Part shown: positions 41,999 to 50,395 of the stretch, in pieces
Position numbering within the stretch: position 1 is the stretch's first letter
Layout of the letters: the number at the start of each line of letters is the position of its first letter
Assembly: GCA_947499555.1 (NCBI GenBank)
Contig: CANMOU010000002.1
Location: 755,001 to 819,000 of the forward strand
Direction: 5' to 3'
Source: an uncultured Roseovarius sp.
Lineage (GTDB): Bacteria; Pseudomonadota; Alphaproteobacteria; Rhodobacterales; Rhodobacteraceae
Length of the DNA: 64,000 nt
Made by a program: the position numbers and the translations under genes
Notes under the pieces: generated by a model
Database searches by the model: none
Told to the model about the DNA's origin: nothing
What the model saw: the letters and a program-made list of their open reading frames with translations, nothing else

Positions 41999-42075
41999 CG
42001 GAGTGTAGCTCAGCCTGGTAGAGCACTGTCTTCGGGAGGCAGGGGCCGGAGGTTCGAATCCTCTCACTCCGACCA
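41999..42075 (+). tRNA. tRNA-Pro (anticodon CGG)
   Basis: A full cloverleaf of 77 bases: acceptor stem CGGAGTG/CACTCCG, D arm GCTC/GAGC, anticodon stem CTGTC/GGCAG with loop TTCGGGA (anticodon CGG, G at position 37 as in proline tRNAs), T arm GGAGG/CCTCT with TTCGAAT, and an encoded CCA. Its 3' part is duplicated 8.3 kb downstream. Confidence 0.95.
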
Positions 42076-42077
42076 TT
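42028..42077 (+). repeat. Left attachment repeat (inside tRNA-Pro)
   Basis: This 50-bp sequence, from GTCTTCGGGAGG at the anticodon arm to GACCATT just past the CCA, is identical to 50346-50395. The bases on both sides differ, so the identity ends sharply. Confidence 0.92.
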
Positions 42078-42395
42078 AAATCAATAAGTTGTGCCAAAAG
42101 ACCGCTTAAAAACAAGATAATTGTCTCGGTTTTGTCTGGCGAAACTGAGCAAGTCTCGCAGGAAACTCGATCGATTGATTATCGTGGATCGCTCGCACAA
42201 TCGATCAACGCCAAAGCCGCCATTGGCCAATTTGCCGCGAAAGGTCAGTCAAGCCCAAAGCAGTCTTTGGGTTGCGCCTCCAAAATCTCTCTCGGTTCCG
42301 CTTCAAGTTGGCTATTTCATCCCGATCCGCACCCATAAACCTACCTACGAGCTGTTTCTGAGGGTTTTTTGAAGGTCAAAGACAATTAAAAGACG
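42078..42395. other. Left end of the island, no gene
   Basis: No frame here looks like a protein; in particular no integrase fragment is recognisable. A perfect 9-bp inverted repeat, GATCGATTG (42169-42177) and CAATCGATC (42198-42206), lies about 90 bp inside the attachment site and could be a recombinase or regulator binding site. Confidence 0.5.
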
Positions 42396-43265
42396 TCACT
42401 TCATAGGAATTGCGAATAACGTGGTCAGCGCGGATGTCACAACCAATACTAAAACAAAGGCCAACCATTCTATTTTCAAGGCCTTCGCCAAGGATTTGCC
42501 TGCCTTAGGGTCGCCAGCAACAAGTCTGGGCACAATCCGAAATTTATTGAGTGCGCCAAGCAGAAGAAGACCTGCGACGATTGCCAATTTGGCTAGAAGA
42601 TTTACCCCGTAGCTTGTTGCAAAAAGCGCATTCCAAGACCCGACTAGCTTCCAGCTAAGCAAAACACCGGCAAGCAAGAGAAGGGGAATGATCGCCGACG
42701 CGATCTGTCCAAATCGATGCCCTAATTCTCTGGCGGCCACAAGGGTTTGGGCTTGGTCAGCCAACTTACCCAGCGGAAAGAGTATTCCGATCCAAAACGA
42801 CACCACGGCTAGGTGAACGAATAAAACCACCTTGGTCCAAATCAAAGCATCGTCCGCAACATGACCAATTGCTGAGAACGACCAAAGAGCTCCGACTGCC
42901 CCAACCAAAGCCAACACCCATGCGAAACCGCCAAGAAGTAACCCCAGCATCATCAATCCAAGACCGGCGATTCGAAACGAAAGCGCCGATCCCACCGGCG
43001 TTTGCCACATCATGCCAAGGATGGTTGGGTCAGTAATGCCACTTGCATCGCCGGTTAATGCGGCTCCGCGCAGCGCAAAACCAGTTAGTGCCGCGACTAA
43101 ACCGAGCGCTGAGCAAAAAAAGGCAAAGCGTTGTATAGCTGTGAGGATTTCGTGAACCAGAGGCGCAAACACAAAGCGAACCGTCACAAGACCCGCTGCG
43201 GTAAATACACCAAAATACAAGAGTGATTTGGCAAGAATTGCCGACAGTTCAAAGACGTCCGGCAC
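42396..43265 (-). CDS. copD: CopD-family copper transport membrane protein
   Basis: A 289-residue inner-membrane protein with eight hydrophobic segments. The CopD pattern appears as FSAIGHVADD, WTKVVLFVHLAVVSFWIGILFPLG and the C-terminal WLAFVLVLVVTSALTTLFA helix. The histidines in GHVADD and LFVHL are candidate copper ligands. CopD works with periplasmic CopC in moving copper across the inner membrane. It starts 4 bp after the copC stop, so the two form one operon on the minus strand, opposite to the cus genes. Confidence 0.88.
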   Translation of the reverse strand: MPDVFELSAILAKSLLYFGVFTAAGLVTVRFVFAPLVHEILTAIQRFAFFCSALGLVAALTGFALRGAALTGDASGITDPTILGMMWQTPVGSALSFRIAGLGLMMLGLLLGGFAWVLALVGAVGALWSFSAIGHVADDALIWTKVVLFVHLAVVSFWIGILFPLGKLADQAQTLVAARELGHRFGQIASAIIPLLLLAGVLLSWKLVGSWNALFATSYGVNLLAKLAIVAGLLLLGALNKFRIVPRLVAGDPKAGKSLAKALKIEWLAFVLVLVVTSALTTLFAIPMK

Positions 43266-43268
43266 GTT

Positions 43269-43610
43269 TTATTCGACCTCGAAGGAGAATTCCCCCTGCA
43301 TGGCATGCCCATCAACCCCTAGACCTCGCCATTCAATCTCATAAATACCTGTGCCCATTGGTTCGATCGGGAGTTTAAATGCGTTCACAAATGCGTTGTG
43401 ATCACTCAAATCGATCGATTGTGTATCCCCGCTGGAATGGCTGGCTTCGACTTTGGTCAACCTCAATTTGTCTGAGAAGTTGAGTGCGATTTCCGTGGGC
43501 GGGCTTTCTAGGATCATGCCATCCTCAGGGGTCGTGGCATTCATCTTCGAATGCGCATTTGCTGCTGCGGAAGACAAAACAATACAGGCTGCCAAAGTCA
43601 GATTTTTCAC
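43269..43610 (-). CDS. copC: CopC-family periplasmic copper-binding protein
   Basis: A 113-residue protein. Signal peptide VKNLTLAACIVLSSAAANA is followed directly by His (HSKMNATTPEDG), so the mature protein begins with the histidine that binds Cu(II) through its amino terminus in CopC proteins. Further family marks are SPPTEIALNFSDKL and VDGHAMQGEFSFEV with the second ligand His. A GTG start 8 bases after GAGGA is chosen; an upstream in-frame start would bury the signal peptide. A MerR-type promoter lies 70-100 bp upstream. Confidence 0.9.
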   Translation of the reverse strand: MKNLTLAACIVLSSAAANAHSKMNATTPEDGMILESPPTEIALNFSDKLRLTKVEASHSSGDTQSIDLSDHNAFVNAFKLPIEPMGTGIYEIEWRGLGVDGHAMQGEFSFEVE

Positions 43611-43677
43611 GGTAACTGTCCTCTTTTTTGCAAGAAAATGAGCGAATTTTGCGCTTGGCAATGAACCTTGTGTACTG

Positions 43678-43713
43678 AGGCTAAGGGTTCCAGCAAGGGT
43701 AATGTCAACCCTT
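43678..43713 (-). promoter_or_regulatory. MerR/CueR-type promoter of copCD
   Basis: On the minus strand: -35 TTGACA (43703-43708), a 19-bp spacer containing CCCTTGCTGGAA, then -10 TAGCCT (43678-43683). The long spacer and the CCTTGCTGGAA core are as in the CueR-regulated copA promoter of E. coli. An outer AAGGGTT/AACCCTT dyad surrounds it. No cueR gene is in the window. Confidence 0.72.
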
Positions 43714-43801
43714 CCAAAGCACTGTCCTTCTTAGTCCGACGGCATGGCGTGACTTTGTCGTTCAGCGTTTCGACCTTTTACTGAAGTGCAAACGCGGTTA
43801 T

Positions 43802-44200
43802 ATGAGCGTCATGGTCGAAATCGAACGGATCACCAAGATTCTTTGCTTTGCACTGTTTGCTCTGGCGGTAGCTCTGGGCGGACTTGGTATGGAAGCTGCG
43901 CACGCAAAAGCGTCTCACGATGAGCATTCCGTTCAGATGGAACTTGCGCTGATTGATCTTGGCGATCTCGACAGGCACGCCCATATGGAACATCATCACC
44001 ACGTTTCAATGGAATTGTCAGAAAATCACGAGGGTCATGCTGAGTGCACGATGGCTGCTTGCTGTCACACAGGCGGTACTGAAGTGCAGTTCCGGTTATC
44101 CCTCGTCGATGAAAGTACCGCGATCTTCGCCATCTTCTCTGCCGATCAGCACTCGGACGCGGAAAAAGATCGCGCAGACAAACCTCCAAGACACATCTGA
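43802..44200 (+). CDS. Exported His/Met/Cys-rich protein, probable metal binder
   Basis: A 132-residue protein I cannot assign to a family. A hydrophobic N-terminal segment (ILCFALFALAVALGGLG) ends in EAAHAKA, a likely signal cleavage site. The mature part is crowded with metal ligands: HDEHSVQM, DRHAHMEHHHHVSM, ENHEGHAECTMAACCH. An internal ATG at 43811 is an alternative start. It is the first plus-strand gene of the copper island, 84 bp before cusB with a stem-loop between, so a role as periplasmic copper buffer or sensor is likely by context. Confidence 0.7.
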   Translation: MSVMVEIERITKILCFALFALAVALGGLGMEAAHAKASHDEHSVQMELALIDLGDLDRHAHMEHHHHVSMELSENHEGHAECTMAACCHTGGTEVQFRLSLVDESTAIFAIFSADQHSDAEKDRADKPPRHI

Positions 44201-44241
44201 TTTGATCAGTTGCTGACGCATCTTGGTGCGGCAGTTCTTTT

Positions 44242-44261
44242 GGCACGGCTGTAACCGTGCC
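44242..44261 (+). other. Stem-loop before cusB
   Basis: GGCACGG-CTGTAA-CCGTGCC, a perfect 7-bp stem in the gap between the His-rich gene and cusB; no T run behind it. Attenuation or mRNA protection is possible. Confidence 0.5.
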
Positions 44262-44284
44262 TGGTTTCAAATCAGGAACATGCT

Positions 44285-46480
44285 ATGCGTGGACGTCATA
44301 TAGCCCTCACAATCCTGGCGTTGACCGCCGGTATCGGTGGTGGTGTTTTGCTTGAACAGCAGCGCTCAAAAGCTGCCATGAACGCAGTCGATACGGGGTC
44401 TCAAATCCTTTATTGGGTTGCGCCTATGGACCCAAATTTCCGCAAGGATGGACCTGGCAAATCTCCCATGGGGATGGACCTCGTTCCGGTCTACGAGGGG
44501 GACGAGCCAAACGGGGACTCTGGAAACGTCATATTGTCGTCGGCGGAGGTGAACGCCATTGGCGTACGCACGGCAGTTGCCCGCATGGAAGATGTGGCGC
44601 GACGGATTGAGACGGTTGGTTTCGTGGCCTATGACGAGCATGAAACAAGCCACATCCACACGCGTGTCGAAGGCTGGATTGAGCGGCTTGAAGTCCGCGC
44701 AGAGGGTGATCCTGTCGCCGAAGACGAGTTGCTCTTTGAACTCTACGCACCTGAAATCACGATTGCGAGTTCCGAGCTTCAACGCGCCGTGCGCCGCAGG
44801 GATGCCGATGAGGAACGCATTGCCCGCACGAAGCTTATGAACTTTGGCGTCAGCGAACGCCAGATCGACGAAATGGCAAAGGCAGACGCCCCGGCCAAGC
44901 GCATCAGATACTACGCACCTCAAAACGGTGTTGTCTTAGGTTTGAATGCGGCAGATGGAATGTATCTTGAACCAAACACCCGTGCGATGTCCCTTGGCGA
45001 TCTTTCGACTGTCTGGATCATAGTGGACGTTTTTGAGCGTGATCTGGCGCTACTGACACCGGACATGCAGGCAAAGGCAAGTTTCGATCATCTGCCGGAC
45101 AAGATGTTGACGGGTGACATCGACTACATCTTCCCAGAGCTTGATCCGACGACACGAACACTTCGGGTGCGCTTGCGCTTTGACAACGCCGAGGGCAGTC
45201 TAAAACCGAACATGTTTGCCAGTGTCACGCTTGTTCCCAGCCAAACGCGAGAAGCGGTCACGGTGCCTTCGGAAGCCGTCATTCGAACCGGGCGCGCAGA
45301 ACGCATCATTCTGAAGACCGACGACGGCACGTTTCGACCCCGGCTTGTGACAACCGGGTTGCGCAACGGTTTTGGCGAAGGTGGCAGGACTGAGATTGCC
45401 CAGGGCCTAAGCCCTGGTGACGAAGTGGTCGCTTCCGCCCAGTTCCTCATCGACAGTGAAAGTGCGTTAAACGCGGGAATGCTGCGCTTTGCACCTATCG
45501 AAGCCGACGCAGTTGGGGCAAAGGGCACATTGGTGTCACTGGACCCAAGCGCGCGCAGTGCGGTTATCAAGCATGACGAGATTGCGGCCTTGGACTGGCC
45601 AGCCCTGACAACGGAATTTACCATCCGGTCGGATGTCTTTCTTGACGATTTGTCCGAAGGGCAAGCCGTCGAATTCGAGGTGTTTCGCGGAGCGGATAAC
45701 CTGCTGGCGATCAGTGCGATTGGCAGCGATGACGGCGTTGACGCCACGGGCACGGGCATGGTGCATGCGGTGACGCCTGACGGCAAGTTGACGATCAGCC
45801 ATGATCCGATCCCTGCATTGGGGTGGCCTTCCATGAAAATGGACATGGACGTTGCTGGTATTGAGGCGGCGGACATCCCGCTTGAAACGCAGATCGAATT
45901 TGATTTGGCCGAGGGTGAAGACGGCCTTTACGTCATCGTCGGTGTTCGCGGCGATGTGCCAATGGCCGAACAGATGGCCATGGATGCAGACGTGCCGGAT
46001 CAAGACAGTACTGCCGCCCCACCGATTGTCGTTGATGGCGTCATACAATCGGTAAACGCGGACACACGGCAAGCCACGATTGCGCATGGACCGATTGCCG
46101 AAATCGGGATGCCCGGCATGATGATGGATTTTGCCTTAGACGAGAGCCTTGATCCGTCGGCGCTGCCTTTGGATGAGGACCTGTCGCTCACCTTTGCACG
46201 ACCTGACGGGATGACCATGATTCTGACATCGGTAGACCCCAAGACAAAACCGATAAAGGTGATGGGTGTCGTCAATAGCATCAATGCTGAGGCCGCCACA
46301 GCCAACATCACGCATGGCCCTATAACTGAGATCGGGATGCCCGGCATGACGATGGATTTCCCGCTCGGCGAGACGCTGGACCCAGAGAGCCTGCCGATTG
46401 GTCAGGAAACGGGCCTCTTGCTTGAGCAAGGTGGGGATCTTTCCCTGACGGTCATCGGGATTGAGGAGGACGCGTCATGA
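44285..46480 (+). CDS. cusB: CusB-like RND adaptor with four C-terminal CusF-like domains
   Basis: A 731-residue membrane-fusion protein, far longer than CusB (about 400). An N-terminal anchor is followed by a degenerate heavy-metal-binding motif (residues 43-69: APMDP...GKSPMGMDLVP), then the lipoyl, hairpin, beta-barrel and membrane-proximal parts (about 90-400). Residues 413-479, 489-554, 583-650 and 659-726 are four CusF-like repeats. In CusF, copper is held by His36, Trp44, Met47 and Met49. The matching positions are His430/Trp438/Leu441/Thr443, His506/Trp514/Met517/Met519, His601/Met609/Met612/Met614 and His677/Met685/Met688/Met690. So the first repeat has lost its methionines, the second is complete, and the last two swap Trp for Met. 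The end overlaps cusA by 4 bp. Confidence 0.92.
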   Translation: MRGRHIALTILALTAGIGGGVLLEQQRSKAAMNAVDTGSQILYWVAPMDPNFRKDGPGKSPMGMDLVPVYEGDEPNGDSGNVILSSAEVNAIGVRTAVARMEDVARRIETVGFVAYDEHETSHIHTRVEGWIERLEVRAEGDPVAEDELLFELYAPEITIASSELQRAVRRRDADEERIARTKLMNFGVSERQIDEMAKADAPAKRIRYYAPQNGVVLGLNAADGMYLEPNTRAMSLGDLSTVWIIVDVFERDLALLTPDMQAKASFDHLPDKMLTGDIDYIFPELDPTTRTLRVRLRFDNAEGSLKPNMFASVTLVPSQTREAVTVPSEAVIRTGRAERIILKTDDGTFRPRLVTTGLRNGFGEGGRTEIAQGLSPGDEVVASAQFLIDSESALNAGMLRFAPIEADAVGAKGTLVSLDPSARSAVIKHDEIAALDWPALTTEFTIRSDVFLDDLSEGQAVEFEVFRGADNLLAISAIGSDDGVDATGTGMVHAVTPDGKLTISHDPIPALGWPSMKMDMDVAGIEAADIPLETQIEFDLAEGEDGLYVIVGVRGDVPMAEQMAMDADVPDQDSTAAPPIVVDGVIQSVNADTRQATIAHGPIAEIGMPGMMMDFALDESLDPSALPLDEDLSLTFARPDGMTMILTSVDPKTKPIKVMGVVNSINAEAATANITHGPITEIGMPGMTMDFPLGETLDPESLPIGQETGLLLEQGGDLSLTVIGIEEDAS

Positions 46481-49400
46481 TCCCCGCGCTTATCCGTTGG
46501 TCCATCGAGAACCGGTTTGTCGTTGTGGTGCTTGCCTTCATGCTGGCCGCTGCAGGTGTCTGGTCTGTCCGCACCACGCCGGTGGACGCTATCCCCGACC
46601 TTTCGGACGTGCAAGTGATCGTGAAAACATCCTACTCGGGTCAGGCCCCGCAAGTTGTTGAAGATCAGGTAACCTACCCCATTGCAACGGCGATGTTGGC
46701 CGTGCCTGGGGCCATTGACGTGCGTGGGTTTTCCTTCTTCGGCGACAGCTATGTGTATGTCGTCTTCGAGGACGGAACCGATCTTTACTGGGCGCGTTCG
46801 CGGGTGCTGGAATACCTCGCGCAGGTGCAATCCAGTCTACCGGCTGGTGTTAATCCGGAGTTGGGGCCCGACGCCACTGGGGTGGGGTGGATTTACCAAT
46901 ATGCGTTGATCGACCGCACCGGCGGGCACGACCTGTCACAGCTTCGCGCCATGCAAGACTGGTTCCTGAAGTTTGAACTGCAAACCATCGAGGGAGTGTC
47001 CGAGGTCGCCACTATTGGCGGCATGGTCAAGCAATATCAGATCGTCGTGGACCCCAACAAACTGCGCGCTTTCGACATTCCACTTTCCAAGCTGTTGGAG
47101 GCGGTGCAGGAGTCCAACCGCGAAACCGGTGGGAGCGTCATCGAGATGGCCGAAGCCGAGTATATGGTGCGCGCCACCGGCTATGTGGACGGGCTGGACG
47201 ATCTCGCCTCCATCCCCTTGATGGTAAATGAACGCGGCGCGGCGCTCACCCTGAATGACGTGGCCGAAATCCGTCTTGGGCCCGAAATGCGCCGCGGCGT
47301 CGGCGAGTTCGACGGCGAAGGCGACGCCGTGGGCGGCGTTGTCATCATGCGATGGGGCGAGAATGCACTTTCCACGATCAAGGCCGTCGAAGAAAAGCTG
47401 ACCGAGCTACGCGCGTCTCTTCCAGCGGGCGTGGAAATTGTCACCACTTATGACCGCTCCGGCGTAATTGAGCGCGCGATTGAGAACCTCCAGAAAAAGC
47501 TGAGCGAGGAGTTCATCGTGGTCATTCTGGTCTGCGGTGCATTCCTATTACATTTGCGATCCTCACTGGTGATCGTTCTGTTCCTGCCTCTGGGTGTACT
47601 CGCGGCATTCGTCGTGATGCGAATACAGGGTGTGAACGCCAACATCATGTCACTGGGAGGCATTGCAATCGCCATCGGGGCCATGGTTGACGCAGCCATC
47701 GTGATGATCGAGGCCATGCACCGAAAGATCGAAGAAGGAAAAATCACCGCACAGAACCGGTGGAAAGTCGTTGCCGAAGCGGCATCCGAAGTCGGGCCAG
47801 CGCTGTTCTTCTCGCTGGCAATCATCACGGTCAGCTTCGTGCCTGTGTTCGTATTGGAGGCCCAAGAGGGCCGCCTTTTCAAACCACTGGCCTTCACCAA
47901 GACCTATGCCATGGCGGCCGCCGCAATCCTATCGGTCACGCTGGTGCCGGTGCTGATGGGCTACTTCATTCGTGGCCGCATAATCGCGGAACGCCGCAAT
48001 CCGCTCAACGTTCTATGCCAATGGATGTACCGCCCATTTCTGGATGCCGCCGTCGCCTGGCCCTGGGCGACAACCTTGCTGGCGGGCGCGCTTGTGGCCT
48101 CCATGTGGTACCCCGCGCAACGAATTGGCACCGAGTTCATGCCCGCACTGAACGAGGGCGATTTCCTGTATATGCCGTCGCTTTACCCCGGGGTGTCCAT
48201 CGGCAAGGCACGTGAGGTTCTTCAGCAGACCAACCGATTGATCAGCGAGGTACCCGAGGTTGAGAACGTGCACGGCAAGCTGGGCCGCGCCGACACGGCC
48301 ACCGATCCGGCCCCGCTGACGATGATCGAAACAACCATTCAGCTAAAGCCCGAGGAAGAATGGCGCCCCGGCATTACGATGGAGGACATCCGCAACGAGT
48401 TGGATAAACGCGTACAGGTGCCGGGCGTCACAAATGTCTGGATACAACCTATCAAGAACCGCATTGATATGCTGGCCACCGGCATCAAAACGCCGGTGGG
48501 TGTGAAAGTGTCCGGCGCTGATTTGGACGTGATTGAAGAGATTGCCGTGTCTGTCGAACGCGCCGTGGCTGACATTCCAGGCACAACTTCTGCCTACGCC
48601 GAGCGACCCGTCGGTGGTCGCTACATAGAGATCGACATCGACCGGATGGCAGCTGCGCGTTACGCACTGTCGATCACTGACGTGCAGCAGGTTGTACAAA
48701 CAGCCATTGGCGGTCAAACCATCGCCGAAAGTGTTGAGGGTCTTGAGCGGTTTCCAATCAATTTGCGCTATCCCCGCGACTGGCGCGACAGCCCAGACAG
48801 GTTGGCCGATCTGCCGATGGTCACACCTTCTGGGGCACATATTCCTCTCTCAGCCGTAGCTGAAATCAAGCTGGTAGACGGCCCAGGTATGATCCGCTCT
48901 GAAAATGCGCGGCGCACCGGTTTCGTCTTTATCGACATCGCCGGACGTGACCTTGGCGGCTACGTGACAGAAGCGCGTCAGGTTGTGGCAGACACAGTTG
49001 AGTTGCCGCCTGGTTACTCGCTGTCCTGGTCTGGCCAGTACGAATACATCGAACGGGTGCAAGACAAACTGTCGGTCGTTGCCCCCGCGACGCTGCTGAT
49101 CATTACGCTGATGCTGTTCCTGGCTTTCAACCGCGTCACCGAAGTGGTGATTATTCTTTTGGCCTTGCCGGTGGCTCTGGCGGGCGGCGTATGGCTGATC
49201 TGGTATCTCGGCTTCGCTGTGTCCGTCGCCGTTCTGGTTGGCTTCATAGCGCTTGCAGGCGTGGCCGTAGAAACGGCGATCGTGATGCTGCTATACCTCA
49301 ACTTGGCGTGGGACAAACGGCTCAAGATGGCGCAAAATGAAGGCCGAGATTTAACCCGCAACGACATCGAAGAGGCGGTGTTCGAAGGCGCGCTTCTGCG

Positions 49401-49653
49401 ATTGCGACCAAAGCTGATGACAGTCGCTACAATTTTTGCCGGACTTATTCCGATCATGTATGGTACAGCCACAGGTTCGGAAGTCATGCAGCGTATCGCT
49501 GCCCCAATGATAGGCGGCATGGCTACTGCCACAGTTCTTACCCTGTTTGTCATCCCCGCCGTCTTCGTGATCTGGAAACGCTTCAGTCTTACGTGGACGA
49601 AACCCACACCAAATCCTGATGCGTCAAACCCAATCCCTACTCCGGGCGAATAG
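46477..49653 (+). CDS. cusA: CusA-like copper/silver efflux RND pump
   Basis: A 1058-residue inner-membrane proton-driven pump of the heavy-metal RND class. Seen: PVDAIPDLSDVQVIV near the N-terminus, two large periplasmic loops, and twelve membrane segments. FLYMPSLYPGVS and NRIDMLATGIKTPVGVKVSG match the CusA segments that carry pore methionines, which points to Cu(I)/Ag(I) rather than Zn/Co. The charged residues in the fourth helix region (GVAVETAIVMLLYLN in the second half, GAMVDAAIVMIEAMH in the first) fit proton transfer. It is coupled to cusB and followed by cusF. No CusC/TolC channel gene is in the island. Confidence 0.94.
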   Translation: MIPALIRWSIENRFVVVVLAFMLAAAGVWSVRTTPVDAIPDLSDVQVIVKTSYSGQAPQVVEDQVTYPIATAMLAVPGAIDVRGFSFFGDSYVYVVFEDGTDLYWARSRVLEYLAQVQSSLPAGVNPELGPDATGVGWIYQYALIDRTGGHDLSQLRAMQDWFLKFELQTIEGVSEVATIGGMVKQYQIVVDPNKLRAFDIPLSKLLEAVQESNRETGGSVIEMAEAEYMVRATGYVDGLDDLASIPLMVNERGAALTLNDVAEIRLGPEMRRGVGEFDGEGDAVGGVVIMRWGENALSTIKAVEEKLTELRASLPAGVEIVTTYDRSGVIERAIENLQKKLSEEFIVVILVCGAFLLHLRSSLVIVLFLPLGVLAAFVVMRIQGVNANIMSLGGIAIAIGAMVDAAIVMIEAMHRKIEEGKITAQNRWKVVAEAASEVGPALFFSLAIITVSFVPVFVLEAQEGRLFKPLAFTKTYAMAAAAILSVTLVPVLMGYFIRGRIIAERRNPLNVLCQWMYRPFLDAAVAWPWATTLLAGALVASMWYPAQRIGTEFMPALNEGDFLYMPSLYPGVSIGKAREVLQQTNRLISEVPEVENVHGKLGRADTATDPAPLTMIETTIQLKPEEEWRPGITMEDIRNELDKRVQVPGVTNVWIQPIKNRIDMLATGIKTPVGVKVSGADLDVIEEIAVSVERAVADIPGTTSAYAERPVGGRYIEIDIDRMAAARYALSITDVQQVVQTAIGGQTIAESVEGLERFPINLRYPRDWRDSPDRLADLPMVTPSGAHIPLSAVAEIKLVDGPGMIRSENARRTGFVFIDIAGRDLGGYVTEARQVVADTVELPPGYSLSWSGQYEYIERVQDKLSVVAPATLLIITLMLFLAFNRVTEVVIILLALPVALAGGVWLIWYLGFAVSVAVLVGFIALAGVAVETAIVMLLYLNLAWDKRLKMAQNEGRDLTRNDIEEAVFEGALLRLRPKLMTVATIFAGLIPIMYGTATGSEVMQRIAAPMIGGMATATVLTLFVIPAVFVIWKRFSLTWTKPTPNPDASNPIPTPGE

Positions 49654-49688
49654 CCCAGCACGCTAGCGCTTTTTCAATGGAGGATCCA

Positions 49689-50057
49689 ATGCGCAATTTC
49701 ACACTCTCACTGGCACTTATCTGTTTCATGGCCCCCCAAGGCTTCGCCAGCGATGATCAATCCGGTCACTCAGACCACTCGGGCCACACCGATCATTCCG
49801 AAAAGTCCCATGGTGATCACTCCGCAATGCACGATGGTGTGCATGCCGAAGTCACAATCAACAGCATGTCTGATAGCGCTGTGAATGTATCTCACGGACC
49901 AATTCCTGAGATTGGCTGGCCTGCAATGACTATGGACCTTAACCTCATTGAGGGTGCCGAGGTCGGCGACGTCAAAGTAGGCGAAGAAGCTATGATGATG
50001 TTGGAAAAAGGTGAAGATGGAATGTACGCGGTTCGCGCACTTGTGCCGATGGAATGA
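49689..50057 (+). CDS. cusF: CusF-like periplasmic copper chaperone
   Basis: A 122-residue exported protein. After the signal peptide (RNFTLSLALICFMAPQGFA) comes a His/Asp/Ser-rich spacer (SGHSDHSGHTDHSEKSHGDH), then one CusF-like barrel with a complete copper site: His69, Trp77, Met80, Met82, the same spacing as His36/Trp44/Met47/Met49 of CusF. The ATG after GGAGGA is chosen. It should hand Cu(I) or Ag(I) to CusB/CusA. The barrel is closely similar to the fused repeats of the CusB protein, which suggests a common origin. Confidence 0.92.
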   Translation: MRNFTLSLALICFMAPQGFASDDQSGHSDHSGHTDHSEKSHGDHSAMHDGVHAEVTINSMSDSAVNVSHGPIPEIGWPAMTMDLNLIEGAEVGDVKVGEEAMMMLEKGEDGMYAVRALVPME

Positions 50058-50345
50058 TATCAGTCCTAGCGAGCTAAAAAGACGCCGAATCTTTGAATTT
50101 TGCCGTTTGCGAGTTTTTGTTTTCAGCAGCTTTGCCCCGCAAAGCAGAAGTGTCTTCTGGATGTGGTGAAGGTCGGCTCAACCTTAGATGAGGCGGCAAG
50201 CCCGCAGCTGTCAATCTTTTGTCTCGAAGTTGACTCAGAGAAATTCGGTTGAGTTACCGGTTTGAAAATACCGGATAATTTCGACAACAAACACTGCAAA
50301 AAAAACAGTGGTCAACTAACTTGTTGATTTAATTAATGTGGTAAC
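50058..50345. other. Right end of the island, no gene
   Basis: An AT-rich stretch without a convincing frame. It contains a small stem CCGGT-N8-ACCGG (50257-50274) and a run of eight A around 50297. No transposase or integrase remnant is seen. Confidence 0.5.
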
Positions 50346-50395
50346 GTCTTCGGGAGGCAGGGGCCGGAGGTTCGAATCCTCTCACTCCGACCATT
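50346..50395 (+). repeat. Right attachment repeat (tRNA-Pro 3' fragment)
   Basis: An exact 50-bp copy of the tRNA-Pro end including CCA. The 5' half of the tRNA is absent, so this is not a working tRNA but the displaced end left by integration. Confidence 0.92.

Follow-up and report, generated by a model that had tools for sequence, protein, structure and literature searches.

In the available text of PMC5704250, CIMEs are described as elements that keep attL and attR after losing their integration and transfer genes. According to the available part of PMC7563491, such integrase-free, att-flanked elements are very common, the classical ones span 1.2-13 kb, and cadmium-resistance genes lie mostly within them. 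At one tRNA-Lys in S. agalactiae, cited in the same part of PMC7563491, there are 215 CIMEs versus 88 ICEs and 66 IMEs.

The locus considered here is a copper island in a 64-kb window, i.e., the whole stretch of 64,000 nucleotides analysed from an uncultured Roseovarius sp. Similar to a CIME, the island retains attL and attR at the 3' end of its target gene and has no genes for integration or transfer. Its 8.3 kb falls inside the size range given for classical CIMEs in the available part of PMC7563491, and metal-resistance cargo is present in both, copper here and cadmium in the CIMEs described there. The likeness concerns the anatomy of a single CIME only; an ICE or IME ancestry forms no part of the match, and neither a remnant nor an integrase-bearing version of the copper island was found in the window or the genus genomes. 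Unlike in the CIMEs, the integrases found at tRNA-Pro(CGG) belong to phage-like and other islands, the host is an alphaproteobacterium, and any tandem partner is now absent. Among the papers listed by literature searches on Roseovarius genomic islands and copper, none named this island, and those on tRNA genomic islands with direct repeats but lacking an integrase returned no matching paper.

Target tRNA and attachment sites

The features of the locus are collected in Table 1. The original prediction, made from the sequence alone, described an exact 50-bp duplication of the 3' part of tRNA-Pro(CGG), with the copies 8318 bp apart, and both copies were confirmed at this spacing. The repeat reaches from five bases before the anticodon to two bases beyond the terminal CCA, and no other exact direct repeat in the window is as long. 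Masking of one copy leaves a maximum of 19 bp, and 20 first-order Markov sequences of equal length had longest repeats of 14-19 bp. Nowhere else in the genome does the 50-bp sequence recur at up to 3 mismatches. The locus lies in the interior of its 932-kb contig. The copper island is thus bounded by direct repeats with the tRNA 3' end, as is a tRNA-targeted island.

Table 1. Features of the copper island and its attachment sites (positions within the window)
Feature	Position	Strand	Basis or remark
tRNA-Pro(CGG), intact, target gene	41999..42075	+	ARAGORN
attL, left attachment copy, within and just past the tRNA	42028..42077	+	exact repeat; copies in relatives
Gene-free left end	42078..42395	not applicable	integrase remnant: none detected
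copD, copper resistance membrane protein	42396..43265	-	PF05425; NCBIfam score below cut-off
copC, periplasmic copper-binding protein	43269..43661	-	PF04234; NCBIfam score below cut-off
132-aa protein, without Pfam or NCBIfam family	43802..44200	+	
cusB-type membrane-fusion protein, four CusF stretches	44285..46480	+	
cusA, heavy-metal RND efflux transporter	46477..49653	+	TIGR00914
cusF-like periplasmic copper-binding protein	49677..50057	+	
Gene-free right end	50058..50345	not applicable	integrase remnant: none detected
attR, right attachment copy, free-standing second copy of the 3' part of the tRNA	50346..50395	+	exact repeat

The left gene-free end also contains, at 42205-42270, a pair of imperfect direct repeats of 22 bp at a spacing of 44 bp. 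The first of them overlaps short weak matches in four other family genomes.

Empty site in a related genome

The comparison set consisted of 85 genomes of one genus, Roseovarius, and the flanks were compared in 47 loci (L011-L057), for many of which the flanking sequence covered only 1.5 kb. Two of the 47, G030 and G079, have iclR, the gene to the right of the island in the window. In G030, the DUF2167 gene is followed by a single tRNA-Pro (77 of 77 bases identical to the window's) and then by iclR, with about 90 bp separating the tRNA from the iclR alignment, which is the empty site of a tRNA-targeted island. G079 likewise has one tRNA-Pro copy, but is a weaker control than G030 because 1.86 kb intervenes before iclR; this interval holds a 541-residue open frame, presumably encoding a mechanosensitive-channel-like protein. 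Neither genome has a cusB match at E 1e-60, the threshold at which cusB is found in 24 of the 85 genus genomes, the window's own genome among them. Since the same neighbours are joined at one tRNA-Pro in G030, with no cargo between them, the copper island is a true site-specific insertion, and the tRNA-targeted island without an integrase that had been proposed is real.

Copper cargo

The earlier description of the interval as holding only copper-handling genes is borne out by family for five of the six; the sixth, the 132-aa protein, matched no Pfam or NCBIfam family. CopD and CopC passed the Pfam thresholds and did not reach the curated NCBIfam cut-off. Judging from their families, the presumed roles of the copper genes are export of Cu(I) and handling of copper in the periplasm. 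A mobility family was assigned to none of the six genes, five having non-mobility families and one having none. The 132-aa protein, relatives of which (25-35% identity) precede cusB in other Roseovarius, is a candidate copper-binding protein. No match to a copper-responsive regulator family was obtained among the six cargo genes (42396-50057; Pfam and NCBIfam), and control of the module must therefore lie elsewhere or be absent. The G+C content of the island is 54.7% versus 55.8% for the rest of the window.

Two further features of the cargo were observed. The CusB-type adaptor carries its four CusF stretches at the C-terminal side, in addition to the separate CusF, and has full-length relatives in other Roseovarius, some of them shorter. 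The 132-aa protein is rich in His and Met, and its relatives preceding cusB in the copper modules of other Roseovarius are weak ones.

The tRNA-Pro(CGG) hot spot and its integrase family

Of the 85 genus genomes, 45 contain the last 22 bases of the tRNA with no more than one mismatch. Two tRNA-end copies lie within 25 kb on one contig in seven of these 45, at spacings of 8.3 (G000), 19.0 (G007), 7.9 (G008), 6.9 (G012), 8.2 (G033), 21.1 (G063) and 24.4 kb (G084). The pairs of G033 and G063 include a diverged second copy, with 15 and 11 ungapped mismatches, respectively, over 48 positions; if these two are set aside, pairs remain in five genomes, G000, G007, G008, G012 and G084. Left out of the pair count were G082, with two copies 415 kb apart, and G017, with three copies on three contigs. 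The 3' end of tRNA-Pro(CGG) is an insertion hot spot in the genus.

One tyrosine-integrase family recurs beside the repeat pairs and beside single sites in other genomes. The family integrase is intact in two genomes, G008 and G017 (contig C4), and broken or partial in seven: G007, G012, G046, G047 (counted on a 61-residue tblastn piece), G064 (counted on a piece truncated where the contig ends), G082 and G084. G027 was left out, the PF00589 fragment near its tRNA-Pro having missed the family profile at 1e-15. This profile was run on all 85 genus genomes and PF00589 on 21 of them. All seven full-length family members match PF00589, and their alignment keeps the invariant R-K, K, H and Y positions, which we take to be catalytic.

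In three of the seven repeat-bounded segments (G000, G033 and G063), the window's island included, no integrase match was found between the repeats. The missing integrase had been regarded as remarkable. With this count at the same tRNA, and with CIMEs called very common in the available part of PMC7563491, it no longer appears so: the integrase-free state is common among such islands, and the copper island is ordinary in this respect.

The exact 46-bp site also occurs in nine viral contigs. Clear relatives of the integrase are present in five of them (L131-L134 and L136), and a sixth, L129, has a weak one, at E 9e-4 only; in the remaining three, these queries found none. A complete tRNA-Pro is absent from eight of the nine within the stretch examined. 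The window has the attachment core of the Roseovarius tRNA-Pro(CGG) integrase elements, and its repeat boundary is the one used by integrase-bearing elements. G008, G017 and the five viral contigs share the window's tRNA, and their repeat boundary is also that of the window except for single-base differences on the left. They differ from the copper island in their cargo and in the integrase adjoining the site, and no cusB relative was confirmed in the viral contigs.

L134 (10191-11121) has an integrase, an att copy and, 885 bp downstream of this copy, a complete tRNA-Pro(CGG), the 3' end of which repeats the site. Comparison of the tRNA-like sequence with phages gave 281 records; the matches listed were mostly phage tRNA-Pro genes and were not used as evidence.

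Integrase search in the window and its genome

The genome from which the window comes has 11 matches to PF00589, none of them inside the 64 kb. In tblastn of the G008 integrase and one G007 piece against the gene-free ends, short chance-level matches only were obtained (best E 0.18, limit 100). The statement of the original prediction that no integrase can be recognised in these ends therefore stands. The copper island lacks the adjacent integrase of its own that an autonomous island has, and no family integrase, intact or broken, lies between its repeats. No member of the cognate family was detected anywhere in the genome by the family profile at E 1e-15, and the best match of the G008 integrase there has E 0.008. 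The 11 PF00589 matches were considered as possible helper integrases and rejected, none of them passing E 1e-15 with the family profile.

The ends of the element were sought in 394 family genomes, only two of which (G000 and G011) belong to the genus; otherwise, the genus was compared through the fetched loci only. The right end gave no match elsewhere in the 394 genomes. The left end gave matches of 28-41 bp in four of them, which look unrelated. In the fetched genus loci, the ends did not recur either.

The copper module at other sites

The gene order of the module recurs in G003, G014, G066 and G078, in none of them at tRNA-Pro. In G066, where cusA is 92% and cusB 74% identical to those of the window, the order copD-copC / small protein-cusB-cusA-cusF is kept with copD towards the tRNA. 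The G066 island differs in adjoining tRNA-Ser(GGA) and two tyrosine recombinases, and in its 15-bp repeat of the tRNA end, located 16.25 kb away. Since the G066 module lies beside recombinases, an integrase-bearing island can carry the copper module as cargo. Among the eight cargo-bearing genomes searched with PF00589, only G066 and G014 have matches in this arrangement, on the tRNA side and no more than 30 kb away; G027 has one at a distance of about 27 kb, whereas none is near in G003 or G078. Among the genus genomes searched, no relative has this cargo together with an integrase at tRNA-Pro(CGG).

In G014, tRNA-Ser(GCT) is followed by two recombinases, and the module begins just past a 14-base copy of the tRNA end with one mismatch. 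The 11-base tRNA-Ser end does not recur beyond cusF at 0-1 mismatch. Accretion, past or in progress, is possible in G014, and this arrangement hints at how an excised tandem neighbour could leave the module behind. Within the G014 loci (C2:726002-759000; L144, L145), the imperfect tRNA-Ser(GCT) end bounds the two-recombinase island and the copper module lies just beyond it.

A plasmid-borne copper module was also sought and rejected: no record covers 80% of the query, and the best, a Sulfitobacter plasmid, covers 37% at 75.2%.

Origin of the island

The copper island is most probably a decayed, CIME-like genomic island that integrated into the 3' part of tRNA-Pro(CGG) and now consists of cargo and two att sites, the integrase having since been lost. 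The insertion is precise, with an intact left tRNA, a perfect right copy and an empty site in a relative, and the site is shared with a tyrosine-integrase family found in relatives and viral contigs. Integration would have been performed by a member of this tRNA-Pro(CGG) family or by an integrase of equal specificity. The integrase could then have disappeared through a deletion between the tRNA and copD, or through excision of an integrase-bearing tandem neighbour, with the copper segment staying in place. We infer this loss rather than see it, since no integrase remnant is left in the window. Between the two alternatives of the original prediction, a lost integrase and movement in trans, the former fits better: in relatives, the integrase at this tRNA is intact in some, broken in others and absent in yet others, and the own genome has no close relative of the cognate integrase.

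The repeats themselves bear on the mode of loss. All 48 sites are unchanged, which has a chance of 0.6% at 10% neutral divergence and of 8.5% at 5%; the right flank differs from that of G030 by about 20% at the DNA level. The perfect repeats suggest that the insertion was recent. A recent event leaves little time for complete loss of the integrase by small steps, and this counts against the decayed island, as do the missing remnant and the lack, among the relatives searched, of this cargo with an integrase at tRNA-Pro(CGG). Excision of a tandem neighbour would account for both the perfect repeats and the missing remnant, and transfer in trans would do so equally.

The alternative of a minimal non-autonomous cargo, which never had an integrase of its own and was moved in trans by tRNA-Pro(CGG)-specific phage or satellite integrases, is unlikely. 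Helpers for it are plausible, integrases for the same site being supplied by viral contigs and relatives, but the own genome lacks a family member at the thresholds given above. The ends of such an element were not found twice in the 394 family genomes (two of the genus) or the fetched loci, G066 carries the same module together with recombinases, and nothing in the data requires movement in trans. It is similarly unlikely that the cassette is a hitch-hiker, i.e., cargo with att sites that would be excised and inserted in trans by any entering tRNA-Pro(CGG) phage or satellite integrase, as a tRNA-site counterpart of the integrase-less integron cassette arrays. That the copper genes are ancestral here and the repeat arose by chance or local tRNA duplication is very improbable: the G+C of the island is near that of the window remainder, but the empty site in G030 contradicts this reading, and the 50-bp identity versus 14-19 bp in the 20 random sequences, the restriction of cusB to just 24 of the 85 genus genomes and the repeat boundary shared with integrase-bearing elements speak against it.

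Implications

The principle behind a decayed island of this kind is already known, and the copper island is valuable mainly as an illustration of it and as a system in which excision in trans could be tested. In marine Roseovarius, one tRNA site can be aligned in its empty, integrase-bearing, integrase-broken and integrase-free states, and a copper module of one gene order is placed at different sites in different species.
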